Shown: positions 4,697 to 8,704 of the stretch, piece after piece
How positions within the stretch are numbered: position 1 is the stretch's first letter
Layout: each line of letters begins with the position of its first letter
DNA from: an uncultured Lachnospiraceae bacterium
GTDB taxonomy: Bacteria; Bacillota_A; Clostridia; Lachnospirales; Lachnospiraceae
Assembly (NCBI GenBank): GCA_947177885.1
Contig: CAMWWF010000052.1
Span: 1 to 11,936 of the forward strand
DNA: 11,936 nucleotides
Direction: 5' to 3'
The notes under the pieces: generated by a model
Seen by the model: the letters and a program-made list of their open reading frames with translations, nothing else
Databases searched by the model: none
Told to the model about the DNA's origin: nothing
Made by a program: the position numbers and the translations under genes

Positions 4697-7579
4697 CTAT
4701 TCCTCCTCCGGTATGGATATTTTATGAAAAACTTTTTCCCGCACCGGATAGTCTTCCCTTATCCGCCGCTGTGCATTCTCCACCGCATCACGAAATCCCT
4801 GAGCGGACAGCCGGAGCGCGCCTGCACCCCAGATGATCATCTGCTCCAGTCTGTCGGAGGTGGCCACCGTCACATTGGCTTTCTTCGCGATCTTGTGTAC
4901 GGTCTTCTCGATATATTGATCCGCCGTCTCGGCTTCTTTTGTGTACACCACATGGATATTGTGATATTTCATCACGGAACCGGGATTTCCCTTCACCTTA
5001 TAGGCGTCAAATACCAGGATCAGCGTTACGCCCTGACAGCCCTGATAATTGCAGCAGATATCCATGAGCCGGTCCCTTGCGCTGTCAATGTTCACCTCCG
5101 ACAGACTTCGCAGGTCTTCCCATGCAAAAATAATGTTATAGCCGTCCACCAGCAGGTATTCTTCCTTCTGTTCCGCAGGGCGCAGTCTGTACTCCTTCTC
5201 CTCCTGCTTCTCCCGCCCGCCATAGACGGTACTTCCCGTATTCCTCCTATGGTATCTGTAGGGCTCGCAGTCCTGTCTGCTCTTGCCGTAGGTCCGCTGA
5301 AAGATCTCCTCTATCTCCTCCTGTGTGATATAGTCCGATCTGCGGCTCCCGCTGTCCCCCTGCTTTCCCCTGGGGCGCCATCCTGCCGCTCCTGAGGCTT
5401 TCCCGTTTCCCACTGCCCTTTGGGTTTTCGCCATATGGGGATCTCCCGCAGTTTCCCGGAAGCCTGTCTCACCTGAGACTCCCGCAGTTCCCCGAACCCC
5501 CGTCTCATCCGGGAAGCCTGTATACATTCCGTTCCTGATCCGCGATGCATCCTCCGGTGCATCTTCCGTTTTAGAAAGACCGGCCCATCCGCTCTCCACA
5601 TGGGCATATTCCGGCACCTGCCGCCAGTCCACCAGAAACCCGGCTCCATGGGCACAGAAGACGGAGGAGGAAGGATTTTCCGGATCGCTGTCAGGATCAT
5701 AGTCAAACCGGGCAAGCACTTCCTCCGTATCATGGCAGGGTTCATATCCTTTCAAAGCGCATGAAAATCTGCCATGCCCCCTGGTATAGGCACTGACCTC
5801 CCGCTGATATCCGTCCGCCTCCGCTGCCGGTACACTGCCGGTCAGAACGCTGTTCTCCCCCTCCGTCACAGGGCTGTCAAAGCTGCCGTGCATTCTCCGG
5901 ATATCCGACATTGCCCTGCCCAGCTGTTCCGTCGGCACTTCCAATGTGTAGGAAAATACCGGCTCCAACAGGACACTCTCACACTGCATCAGCCCCTGAC
6001 GCAATGCCCTGTAGGTAGCCTGGCGGAAATCGCCCCCTTCCGTGTGCTTCTGATGGGCACGCCCTGCAATGAGCGTGATCCGCATATCTGTGATGGGCGA
6101 ACCTGTAAGCACACCCAGATGCGTCTTCTCCTCCAGATGGGTCAGCACCAGTCTCTGCCAGTTCAGATCCAGTTCGTCCACACTGCATGCGGAAGCAAAC
6201 TCCAGGCCGCTGCCCGGCTCCCCCGGCTCCAGCAGCAGATGCACCTCCGCATAATGGCGCAGGGGCTCGAAATGCCCGATGCCCTCCGCGGCGGAAAGGA
6301 TGGTCTCCTTGTACACAATGCTGCCGCTTCCAAATTCCGCCTCCAGTCCGAACCGCTCCCGGATCAGACTTTTTAAGACCTCGATCTGAACCTCTCCCAT
6401 GACCTGCACATGGATCTCACCCAGAGCTTCTTTCCAGACCACCTGGAGCAGGGGCTCTTCCTCCTCCAGTTGGCGCAGCTGTCCCAGAACCTTCACCGCG
6501 TCGGCTCCCTCCGGCAGGATCACCTGATACGTCAGCACCGGAACCAAAATGGGCTGACTACTGCCGTTCTCATAGCCCAGACCCTGCCCCGCAAAGGTTC
6601 TCTTCAATCCGGTGACCGCACAGATCCCTCCCGCTTCCACAAGATCCGCCGTCTCATAACCTGCCCCGTTATAGATCCTGATCTGATCCGCCTTTTCTTC
6701 CCAGACCTCCCCGGCAGTTGAAGCACTGCCCCGGTTATCCACAATCATCTTTACTTTCAGCGCACCGCCAGTTATCTTGAGATGGGTCAGGCGATTGCCC
6801 GCCGAATCCCGGGAGATCTTATACACTCTGGCGCCGAACTCGATTCCGTACTCAGGAAGCACTGCAAATCTCCGAATACCTCTCAGCAGCTCCTCCACTC
6901 CCTGCAGATGAAGCGCCGTTCCGAAAAAGCAGGGAAATACTTTTCTTTTCCGGATCGCCTCCGCCACAGACTCCTCGGAAAGTCCGCCTGTCTCCAAATA
7001 TTCCTCCATCAGCTCTTCGTTGCACATGGCGAGATTTTCCAGAGCTTCCTCACCGCCGGGCACCTGACCCTCCAGAGATACATTGTCCTGCTCCGTAATA
7101 TCCGGATAAAACTCCACACAACCCTCATCCAGCCTCCGCTGCAGCTCCCGGAGCAGCGCCTCCCTGTCCGTCCCCGGCTGATCCATCTTGTTGACAAAGA
7201 GAAACACGGGAATCCCATATTGCTGCAACAGCTTCCACAGCGTCTGAACATGTCCCTGCACCCCGTCCGCTCCGCTGATGACAAGAATACAATAATCCAT
7301 CACCTGCAGCGTTCTCTCCATCTCCGCGCTGAAATCCACATGTCCGGGAGTGTCCAGCAGCGTAATATCCAGCCCCTCCCATTTCATAGGGGCCTGTTTG
7401 GAGAAAATAGTGATACCCCGCGCCCGCTCCATGGAAAAATTATCCAGAAAGGCATCCTTATGATCCACTCTGCCCAGTTTACGCAGTTCCCCGCAGGTAT
7501 ATAGCATTCCTTCCGCCAGTGTGGTCTTTCCCGCATCCACATGGGCACATATTCCTATCACAAGTTTATCACTCCGCAT
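4697..7579 (-). CDS. Tet(M)/EF-G-like ribosomal GTPase fused to Rae1 NYN endoribonuclease
   Basis: The product (960 aa) has three parts. Residues 1-620 are a Tet(M)/EF-G-type translational GTPase: P-loop 'AHVDAGKTT' (12-20), 'RGIT' (54-57), 'DTPGH' (76-80), 'NKMD' (130-133), beta-barrel and domain III segments, domain IV, and a C-terminal fold ending 'CALKGYEP', like Tet(M)'s LTELKGYH. Residues 625-805 are a polar, Gly/Arg/Glu-rich linker with a duplicated 12-residue unit. Residues 807-950 match Rae1/YacP, the NYN/PIN-like nuclease that cuts mRNA in the ribosomal A site: 'LLVDGYNII' (D812), 'LVFDAYKVKG' (D858), 'TKEAETADQYIEK' (D887) and 'VATSDRLEQ' (D909), so the acidic active-site set looks intact. 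At the domain IV tip, 'GRAHQKHTEGGDF' (506-518) replaces Tet(M)'s YSPVST loop, so tetracycline protection is doubtful. I chose the ATG at 7579 because an AGGAAAG-type site precedes it; the ATG at 7621 lacks one and would sit at the likely transcription start. Ribosome surveillance or rescue is inferred. Confidence 0.9.
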   Translation of the reverse strand: MRSDKLVIGICAHVDAGKTTLAEGMLYTCGELRKLGRVDHKDAFLDNFSMERARGITIFSKQAPMKWEGLDITLLDTPGHVDFSAEMERTLQVMDYCILVISGADGVQGHVQTLWKLLQQYGIPVFLFVNKMDQPGTDREALLRELQRRLDEGCVEFYPDITEQDNVSLEGQVPGGEEALENLAMCNEELMEEYLETGGLSEESVAEAIRKRKVFPCFFGTALHLQGVEELLRGIRRFAVLPEYGIEFGARVYKISRDSAGNRLTHLKITGGALKVKMIVDNRGSASTAGEVWEEKADQIRIYNGAGYETADLVEAGGICAVTGLKRTFAGQGLGYENGSSQPILVPVLTYQVILPEGADAVKVLGQLRQLEEEEPLLQVVWKEALGEIHVQVMGEVQIEVLKSLIRERFGLEAEFGSGSIVYKETILSAAEGIGHFEPLRHYAEVHLLLEPGEPGSGLEFASACSVDELDLNWQRLVLTHLEEKTHLGVLTGSPITDMRITLIAGRAHQKHTEGGDFRQATYRALRQGLMQCESVLLEPVFSYTLEVPTEQLGRAMSDIRRMHGSFDSPVTEGENSVLTGSVPAAEADGYQREVSAYTRGHGRFSCALKGYEPCHDTEEVLARFDYDPDSDPENPSSSVFCAHGAGFLVDWRQVPEYAHVESGWAGLSKTEDAPEDASRIRNGMYTGFPDETGVRGTAGVSGETGFRETAGDPHMAKTQRAVGNGKASGAAGWRPRGKQGDSGSRRSDYITQEEIEEIFQRTYGKSRQDCEPYRYHRRNTGSTVYGGREKQEEKEYRLRPAEQKEEYLLVDGYNIIFAWEDLRSLSEVNIDSARDRLMDICCNYQGCQGVTLILVFDAYKVKGNPGSVMKYHNIHVVYTKEAETADQYIEKTVHKIAKKANVTVATSDRLEQMIIWGAGALRLSAQGFRDAVENAQRRIREDYPVREKVFHKISIPEEE
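5443..5514. repeat. Two tandem 36-bp units in the GTPase-Rae1 linker
   Basis: Two diverged copies with a 36-bp period, each beginning CTCCCGCAGTT on the plus strand at 5443 and 5479, encode a duplicated 12-residue unit (ETGVRGTAG... and ETGFRETAG...) in the linker between the GTPase and nuclease domains. The frame is kept, so the repeat only lengthens the linker. Confidence 0.6.
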
Positions 7580-7834
7580 ATATATGGCTTTCCTTTCACC
7601 TTTTCCTTGACACTTCCTCATATAAGGTTTATATTAATTACGGTTCCCTGTCAACCTTGAAATATCATTTTTTTCAAGTCCGGCCGGGAATGAACCGTTA
7701 TTGTTCACACAGTGCCATCACGGAGCGTTTTTACATACCGGCCCCCTGTCTGCCCTCTTCGGGCACTCAGATCAGGATTGTGAAGGCAGCCGCTGGGGGC
7801 GGCGTGAACCATGACAGAACAATTCCATATAACC
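7580..7834. other. Divergent intergenic region between GTPase-Rae1 and the riboswitch
   Basis: No gene is credible here; open frames crossing it lack recognisable products. It holds the minus-strand promoter candidate and two small GC-rich inverted repeats on the plus strand: TGCCC/GGGCA (7751-7765) and GCCGC/GCGGC (7789-7803). Neither is followed by a T-run. A weak TATAAC (7828-7833) precedes the riboswitch, but transcription starting there would clip the aptamer's first stem, so the thiT promoter probably lies further upstream and was not identified. Confidence 0.4.
7628..7654 (-). promoter_or_regulatory. Candidate promoter of the GTPase-Rae1 gene
   Basis: On the minus strand there is a perfect -35 TTGACA (7649-7654) and a -10 TATAAA (7628-7633), separated by 15 bp, which is shorter than the ideal 17. 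Transcription would begin near 7620, giving a leader of about 40 bases to the ATG at 7579. An inverted repeat (CTTGAAA / TTTCAAG, about 7656-7678) lies directly upstream of the -35 box and might be an operator. Confidence 0.45.
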
Positions 7835-7950
7835 GCTAGGGGAGCACACTGCTGAGATTGGAGAAAGCTGCCGTCGGACACAATGTGAGCCGAAACAGAT
7901 CTTCTCCTGACCCTCATCACTTGAACCGGATAATACCGGCGTAAGGAAGC
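7835..7950 (+). ncRNA. TPP (THI-box) riboswitch aptamer
   Basis: The conserved THI-box blocks occur in order upstream of thiT: 'GCTAGGGGAGC' (7835-7845), 'GCTGAGATT' (7851-7859), 'CTGACCCTCATCACTTGAA' (7907-7925), 'CCGGATAATACCGG' (7926-7939, the pyrophosphate-sensing hairpin), and 'CGTAAGGAAGC' closing P1 with GCT/AGC. The P3 arm is extended, with GGAGAA pairing TTCTCC around a further hairpin. Thiamine pyrophosphate binding should fold the aptamer and switch the downstream thiT off. Identification rests on the signature blocks and on the gene it controls, and the two agree. Confidence 0.95.
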
Positions 7951-7957
7951 AAAAACA

Positions 7958-7980
7958 GCCTGTAATACCTGCCGACAGGC
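7958..7980 (+). other. Hairpin between the aptamer and the thiT Shine-Dalgarno
   Basis: GCCTGT (7958-7963) pairs with ACAGGC (7975-7980) around an 11-nt loop, between the end of the aptamer and the terminator-like hairpin. It probably belongs to the riboswitch expression platform, but its role is not evident from sequence alone. Confidence 0.4.
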
Positions 7981-8023: not shown

Positions 8024-8704
8024 ATGTCTGATTTCTTTGCATTTCCCACTGAGGAAAACACCTTTCAACTGACCGTCCCCGGTATCATCACCGTGACAGT
8101 CCTGATCCTGCTGCTCATTGCAGCCGCAATCCTGTTCCGCTCTGAAAAAGGGAGCACAACCAGAACAAAAATGGCCACAAAGCAGCTTGTCTTCTCCGGT
8201 GTGGCCATGGCACTGGCCCTGGTGGCCTCAGAGATCAAATTCGCCAGACTGCCTTTCGGCGGTTCCATCACCCTGTTCAGCATGTTCTTTGTCGTTCTGA
8301 TCGGATACTGGTATGGGGCAAAAGCCGGCCTGCTCACCGGTTTTGCCTATGGTCTGCTGCAATTTGTACTGGATCCCGTATTTTATTCCCCCTGGCAGAT
8401 GATCGTGGATTATCCCCTGGCATTCGGAGCCCTGGGCCTGTCCGGTTTCTTCAGTGACAGGAAACACGGACTTCTGACCGGCTATATCGCGGGAGTGCTG
8501 GGCAGGTATCTCTTTGCCCTCCTGTCGGGGGCCATCTTCTTCGCCGCCTATGCTCCTGTCCAGACACCCCTGGGTATCCTTACATACAATCTGGTCTACA
8601 ACGCTTCCTACCTCGCTCCGGAGGCAATTGTCACCGTTGTCCTTCTGGCCATCCCCGCCGTAAAGAACGCTCTGGTGAAAGTGAAGAAGCTGGCCACGGA
8701 ATAG
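8024..8704 (+). CDS. thiT: Thiamine-binding S component of an ECF transporter (ThiT)
   Basis: ThiT binds thiamine in the membrane and hands it to a shared energising module (EcfT plus two ATPases) that is encoded elsewhere. The 226-aa protein has the family blocks 'ARLPFGGSITLFSM' (74-87), 'GLLTGFAYGLLQ' (102-113), 'DYPLAFGALGLSG' (129-141), 'GRYLFALLSGAIFF' (160-173), and 'VYNASYLAPE' (191-200), the last carrying Tyr and Asn/Ser residues of the ligand pocket. Six core helices are present. An extra N-terminal helix (about residues 18-38) and a charged loop precede the core, making the protein about 35-45 residues longer than the usual 180-190. The start is fixed by AAGGAGG seven bases upstream, a site that itself lies in the riboswitch hairpin. 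Control by TPP confirms the substrate assignment. No thiamine-synthesis gene is nearby, which fits a salvage role. Confidence 0.93.
   Translation: MSDFFAFPTEENTFQLTVPGIITVTVLILLLIAAAILFRSEKGSTTRTKMATKQLVFSGVAMALALVASEIKFARLPFGGSITLFSMFFVVLIGYWYGAKAGLLTGFAYGLLQFVLDPVFYSPWQMIVDYPLAFGALGLSGFFSDRKHGLLTGYIAGVLGRYLFALLSGAIFFAAYAPVQTPLGILTYNLVYNASYLAPEAIVTVVLLAIPAVKNALVKVKKLATE

Follow-up and report, generated by a model that had tools for sequence, protein, structure and literature searches.

A natural fusion of an EF-G/Tet-like translational GTPase and a Rae1/YacP nuclease domain in Lachnospiraceae and their relatives

The fusion gene and its distribution

The DNA analysed here, the 11,936-nucleotide contig CAMWWF010000052.1 of an uncultured Lachnospiraceae bacterium (assembly GCA_947177885.1; hereafter the window), carries on its minus strand a gene in which a translational GTPase and a nuclease domain of the Rae1/YacP type are encoded as one protein (Table 1). 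The frame runs without interruption through 960 amino acids (aa) and a stop codon, and the plus-strand reading of the same interval contains stops. We took the ATG at 7579 as the start, not the alternative at 7621, which would yield a protein of 974 aa, because a likely ribosome-binding site precedes the former.

Table 1. Features of the fusion gene and its divergent neighbour in the window
Feature	Position	Strand	Basis
Coding sequence of the GTPase-NYN fusion, 960 aa	4697..7579	minus	intact frame; Pfam
Likely ribosome-binding site GTGAAAGGAA before ATG 7579	7590..7599	minus	read directly in sequence
G domain (GTP_EFTU), residues 7-236	6872..7561	minus	Pfam
EF-G domain III, residues 347-417	6329..6541	minus	Pfam
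EF-G domain IV, residues 420-533	5981..6322	minus	Pfam
Domain IV tip loop G506-F518 (GRAHQKHTEGGDF)	6026..6064	minus	alignment, residue conservation
EF-G domain V (EFG_C), residues 536-617	5729..5974	minus	Pfam
Subfamily tail, residues 611-663	5591..5749	minus	alignment, AlphaFold2 model (ordered)
Linker, residues 664-805, mostly disordered	5165..5590	minus	AlphaFold2 model
Short conserved linker helix (ITQEEIEEIFQRTYGK, residues 750-765)	5285..5332	minus	conservation, model helix 753-764
NYN_YacP/Rae1 nuclease domain, residues 809-947	4739..5155	minus	Pfam, PDB match, conservation
Thiamine pyrophosphate (TPP) riboswitch (RF00059, 56.5 bits, gathering 54.3)	7828-7964	plus	Rfam
Thiamine transporter gene (Thia_YuaJ)	8024-8704	plus	domain match

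Pfam searches assigned GTP_EFTU (167 bits), EFG_III (32 bits), EFG_IV (64 bits) and EFG_C (65 bits) to the GTPase part, and NYN_YacP to the C-terminal domain with 160 bits against a cut-off of 24.6, over positions 1-141 of the 166 in the profile. Domain II drew no Pfam call and is covered by the EF-G alignment from a search of PDB sequences, in which the full-length protein matched EF-G (255 bits), TetO (249 bits), TetM (233 bits) and YacP (91 bits, E 3e-25); the NYN part alone matched YacP 5mq8 with an E value of 1.4e-26. An AlphaFold2 model built from 60 sequences (mean predicted local distance difference test score, pLDDT, 80; predicted template modelling score, pTM, 0.65) shows order from the GTPase domains through the tail, up to about residue 663, and again in the NYN domain from residue 806, and the top PDB matches of this model in Foldseek were EF-G structures. 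The first-pass annotation, made from the letters of the DNA alone, had proposed a complete translational GTPase joined in a single frame to a complete Rae1/YacP NYN domain, and the intact minus-strand frame, the Pfam and PDB matches and the NYN_YacP profile score confirm this fusion. It had also put the linker at about 180 residues; the linker is indeed long, but that count included the ordered tail, and its length is about 142 residues.

The fused form is found in many other genomes. In a protein search that scored at least 7976 relatives, NYN_YacP stood in the precomputed Pfam column of all 120 homologues listed. In a genome scan with one genome per species, the GTPase and NYN domain shared one open frame at 80/80 loci (the top 80 among at least 575 stretches confirmed), which excludes the sequencing error that the first-pass annotation had raised as a possible source of the fusion. 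Together with two plasmid records and the window, these loci supplied the 83 fused proteins compared below. Among the loci listed, the taxa were mainly Lachnospiraceae, along with Oscillospiraceae, Butyricicoccus, Flavonifractor and Vallitaleaceae, which supports a wide distribution of the fusion in Lachnospiraceae and their relatives. Relatives of the fusion protein are also encoded in two UNVERIFIED faecal records named 'Bacteriophage sp.' (MT835563.1 and MT835514.1), which may be bacterial contigs.

Within the NYN domain, D812, N815, D858, D887 and D909 are identical in all 83 fused proteins, and the four aspartates among them presumably include the counterparts of the catalytic Bacillus subtilis residues. 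The domain aligns with residues 3-156 of B. subtilis Rae1/YacP (5mq8, 5mq9), whose four conserved aspartates D7, D53, D81 and D104 it shares; unlike the fusion, the B. subtilis protein stands alone, without a GTPase. The linker varies in length among fused proteins and is predicted to be disordered over most of its course (pLDDT < 50 at 669-731, 739-751 and 763-802), and the short helix within it is conserved at E755 (80/83), I759 (80/83) and T763 (76/83).

The GTPase subfamily and its tetracycline resistance label

The GTPase part has the G motifs, the switch-II histidine and domains II-V of a translational GTPase, domain II by EF-G alignment only. Residues G17, K18, T19, D76, G79, H80, N130, K131 and D133 are identical in 83/83 fused proteins, and all 12 G-domain positions checked, switch II H80 included, are unvarying. 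The tip of domain IV is the best conserved 20-residue block in the whole fusion protein. Its loop residues G506, H509, K511, H512, T513, G516, D517 and F518 are identical in 83/83 fused proteins, most of which read GRAHxKHTEGGDF, and unfused members of the subfamily share much of this tip. The corresponding tips of TetO/TetW (GLYYSPVSTPADF) and EF-G (GSYHEVDSNEMAF) are both unlike it. Following domain V, a tail of the form C...FCxH...W...H takes the place of the Tet C-terminal helix, with C615 and C642 conserved in 83/83 fused proteins, H644 in 80/83, and W652 and H660 in 82/83 each. A zinc site formed by this tail, in which C615, C642 and H660 are invariant or nearly so, was considered and not confirmed.

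When we compared subfamily rows with TetO and TetW, the Tet tip YYSPV and the C-terminal helix were found in none of seven fused and none of nine unfused rows. In a quick tree with long branches, fused and unfused members grouped together (support 100), separately from TetO/TetW, EF-G and four further Tet-like proteins. Judged by sequence, the GTPase constitutes a subfamily of its own, marked by a distinct decoding-site loop and a distinct tail. It is like the ribosomal protection proteins Tet(O), Tet(M) and Tet(W) in domain order and overall length, but these lack an NYN domain and differ in tip loop and C-terminal helix; with EF-G/EF-G2 it shares fold and domain order, and it is set apart from these by its domain IV tip, its tail and the NYN domain. 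Separate EF-G-like frames of about 700 aa are also present in two of the fused genomes (G001 and G079).

These differences bear on how the protein should be named. The C-terminal helix of Tet proteins has a part in dislodging the drug. Loops of Tet domain IV likewise dislodge it, according to an earlier report (Atkinson 2015, PMC4342817). The fusion scored 411 bits against the NCBI Tet model tet_protect (cut-off 775), 267 bits against the TetM/W/O/S NCBIfam model (cut-off 1100) and 296 bits against the EF-G equivalog TIGR00484 (cut-off 659). The suggestion of the first-pass annotation that the fused form might already be labelled Tet-like in Lachnospiraceae was borne out, in that some records carry the TetM/TetW/TetO/TetS family name; others read 'translation factor GTPase family protein' or 'NYN domain-containing protein'. 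As the Tet cut-off was missed and the Tet tip and C-terminal helix are absent, we do not file the fusion as a Tet protein despite these record labels; the GTPase is not a member of Tet(M), and 'tetracycline resistance' appears a doubtful label for it.

Copy number, operon slot and origin of the fused Rae1

Whole-genome profile searches found exactly one NYN_YacP match in each of 29 distinct fused genomes (8, 17 from a 259-genome draw from the phylum, and 5, with one genome common to the first two sets). The fused genomes examined thus have no Rae1 match besides the fused gene, and relatives suggest the same for the genome of the window. We also drew 200 genomes from the Lachnospiraceae, the family of a Hungatella genome (L037), and found an NYN_YacP match in 181 of them, 178 with one and three with two. 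In this draw the fused form was taken by a frame length of at least 840 aa, the GTPase being tested directly in some, and the match lay in such a frame in 164 of the 181 genomes. As to the genomes with two matches, both lie in one 1095-aa frame in G103, which makes them one gene, and those in G133 are apparently pieces of a single gene interrupted by the end of a contig. In G032, a second, partial match lies at a contig end (C121:2-400) beside the fused gene.

The 17 genomes without a frame of this length comprised five with separate GTPase and Rae1 genes (G046, G156, G167, G021 and G041), two with Rae1 and no family GTPase (G012 and G052), one in which two frames share the GTPase between them (G078), one with a form that lacks domains IV-V (G108), and eight with what appear to be contig ends or split frames, some of them inspected (G075, G175, G035, G195, G112, G176, G077 and G133).

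B. subtilis rae1 is co-transcribed with yacO/rlmB. Stand-alone rae1 follows cysS-mrnC-rlmB at 7/10 loci, five times with sigH adjacent or close by. The cysS-mrnC-rlmB stretch is intact in 10/10 fused genomes examined and holds a rae1 match in none of them; sigH follows it directly in seven and was not found within the 7 kb read in the other three. Since the ancestral rae1 slot of cysS-mrnC-rlmB-rae1-sigH is empty in these genomes, rae1 has moved. The fused NYN joins the stand-alone Rae1 of Lachnospiraceae in the NYN tree (support 100/99) and, on these comparisons, can be taken as the orthologue of the stand-alone rae1 of this operon. Most simply, rae1 would have left the operon and joined a GTPase already present in the group.

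A single origin of the fusion was not rejected by the approximately unbiased (AU) test in either the GTPase or the NYN tree (p 0.576 and 0.471), each of which took in 31 of the 83 fused rows. In the quick GTPase tree an unfused protein of Ligilactobacillus salivarius sits inside the fused clade; a tree that keeps the fused rows together and places this protein outside them has a likelihood better by 4.3 units, and a secondary loss of NYN in L. salivarius is not supported. Stand-alone genes of Lachnospiraceae nest weakly among the fused ones in the NYN tree (88/73), and NYN may later have been released from the fusion. On the L. salivarius plasmid pMP118 (L003:5977-7911), the unfused GTPase relative adjoins rpsN (S14). 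Relatives accounted for 18 of the 20 plasmid matches listed.

Proposed function and alternative explanations

Translational GTPases of the EF-G type place domain IV in the ribosomal A site, and how Rae1 enters this site and what chooses its targets are, to our knowledge, open questions. Several sources (PMC6613710, PMC12320835, PMC10100781) describe B. subtilis Rae1 as an endonuclease that associates with the ribosome and acts in the A site. The function towards which we lean, with modest confidence, is that of a housekeeping Rae1 permanently tethered to a specialised EF-G/Tet-like GTPase that would recruit it and time its cleavage. Since both active sites are conserved, we infer that the protein delivers Rae1 to paused ribosomes. 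On a paused or stalled ribosome, the GTPase would dock at the factor site, its domain IV reaching into the A site, and would depart after hydrolysing GTP. The flexible tether of about 140 residues would then let NYN take the freed A site and cleave the mRNA in it, in the manner of B. subtilis Rae1. As domain IV and Rae1 are expected to need one and the same space, they would act in turn, or else on a neighbouring ribosome; cleavage would trigger decay and rescue of the transfer-messenger RNA (tmRNA) type. A GTP-timed handover of the A site is plausible. That the protein constitutes a single-chain surveillance factor, in which the GTPase reads the A site before such a handover to the tethered nuclease and which replaces free Rae1 in many gut bacteria, we advance more tentatively, as possible rather than probable. 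The domain content, the invariant G-domain and NYN residues, the single Rae1 match of the fused genomes, the emptied operon slot, the strong conservation of the domain IV tip and the five Lachnospiraceae genomes in which both genes are present separately count in favour of the tethered housekeeping Rae1.

Several observations weigh against it. Cutting can proceed without the GTPase, since Rae1 of B. subtilis is active as a separate protein, and 125 of the 142 genomes with Rae1 above the cut-off in the 259-genome draw are unfused. Domain IV is not always retained, as G108 encodes a natural 690-aa form (L211:2361-4430, minus strand) that runs from the GTPase start through domain III and continues directly with the motif of the linker helix and with NYN, so that domains IV and V and the tail are absent. 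A second Rae1 copy in G032 is possible. No NYN_YacP match was found in 19 of the 200 Lachnospiraceae genomes, where either Rae1 is dispensable or the assemblies are incomplete; the GTPase was not found in these 19 either, and one loss, that of the fused gene, would explain the joint absence. Pairing is not obligate: G843 and G886 each carry an unfused family GTPase, G863 carries a divergent one of 175 bits, and none of the three gave a Rae1 match.

Co-occurrence beyond the fusion lends no support to a partnership either. Rae1 was found in 4/7 carriers of the unfused GTPase in a 398-genome draw versus 143/259 genomes of the draw from the same phylum, where the unfused GTPase occurred in 0/116 Rae1-less genomes. 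Within the orders to which G370 and G390 belong, Rae1 was present in 44/44 new carriers of the unfused GTPase and in 27/28 non-carriers tested. We rejected co-occurrence as evidence of partnership on account of the three Rae1-less carriers named above and of non-carriers that bear Rae1 almost as often.

The main rival is a passive tether, in which the fusion would do no more than enrich Rae1 near ribosomes, with GTP hydrolysis uncoupled from cleavage, and the GTPase would do a separate job such as clearing a bound inhibitor or helping translocation. We regard this as somewhat unlikely. It agrees with the mostly disordered linker of variable length and with the existence of same-subfamily GTPases without NYN, including those of the three genomes that gave no Rae1 match. 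Against it stand the conserved helix within the linker and the rarity with which the parts occur apart in the Lachnospiraceae draw, where 164 of 181 genomes have a fused-length frame, five have separate pairs and three have Rae1 but no intact family GTPase.

A second alternative, that of a tetracycline resistance protein with an added ribonuclease (RNase), stems from the 2015 report that Tet proteins of ten clostridial species had acquired a YacP-like NYN RNase domain, for which a resistance mechanism was suggested (PMC4342817); the GTPase would remove tetracycline and the RNase would take part in the mechanism. The architecture is therefore not new, and the Clostridiales 'Tet proteins' of that report, likened by description, very probably belong to the same family. 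The report calls them Tet, proposes resistance and predates the 2017 description of Rae1; its accessible part makes no mention of copy number, operon loss or the different domain IV tip. The record names and an overall similarity to TetO about equal to that to EF-G speak for resistance, but we consider it improbable given the missed cut-off of the NCBI Tet model, the absence of tip and helix in 16/16 subfamily rows, the separate clade in the quick tree and the exactly one match in 178/200 Lachnospiraceae genomes. No neighbour recurred at a fixed place in more than five of 72 fused loci, although no search aimed at mobile elements was made. Lastly, an assembly or sequencing artefact joining two genes, of which the overlapping different frames in G195 might be a sign, is refuted by the independent genomes and homologues described above.

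In the literature searched we found the fusion only in PMC4342817, and a 2018 paper on Rae1 distribution may already mention it. As far as that literature extends, three results are new here, and may be partly in print: the status of the fused gene as sole Rae1, the loss of rae1 from its operon slot and the features of the subfamily. Because the factor to which Rae1 is fused should act at this site of the ribosome too, a natural fusion so widely kept suggests a partner for Rae1, and it provides a ready-made protein for structural and kinetic work. Labelling what is likely a housekeeping gene of many Lachnospiraceae as 'tetracycline resistance' may inflate counts of resistance genes in gut data.

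The analysis of neighbours covered 72 of the 83 fused loci, 11 being left out where the focal gene was missed by the pattern. In the window, the neighbours (the thiamine transporter, GreA, glycosyltransferases and others) suggest no function for the fusion. No regulatory RNA was found upstream of the fusion gene, the sole Rfam match in the window being the TPP riboswitch that precedes the thiamine transporter gene and is divergent from the fusion gene, and a scan for promoters and terminators at the fusion gene gave nothing on which we rely. Elsewhere in the window, a minus-strand frame at 1248-2864 combines an HAD phosphatase with a CAAX-type protease domain (Rce1-like).

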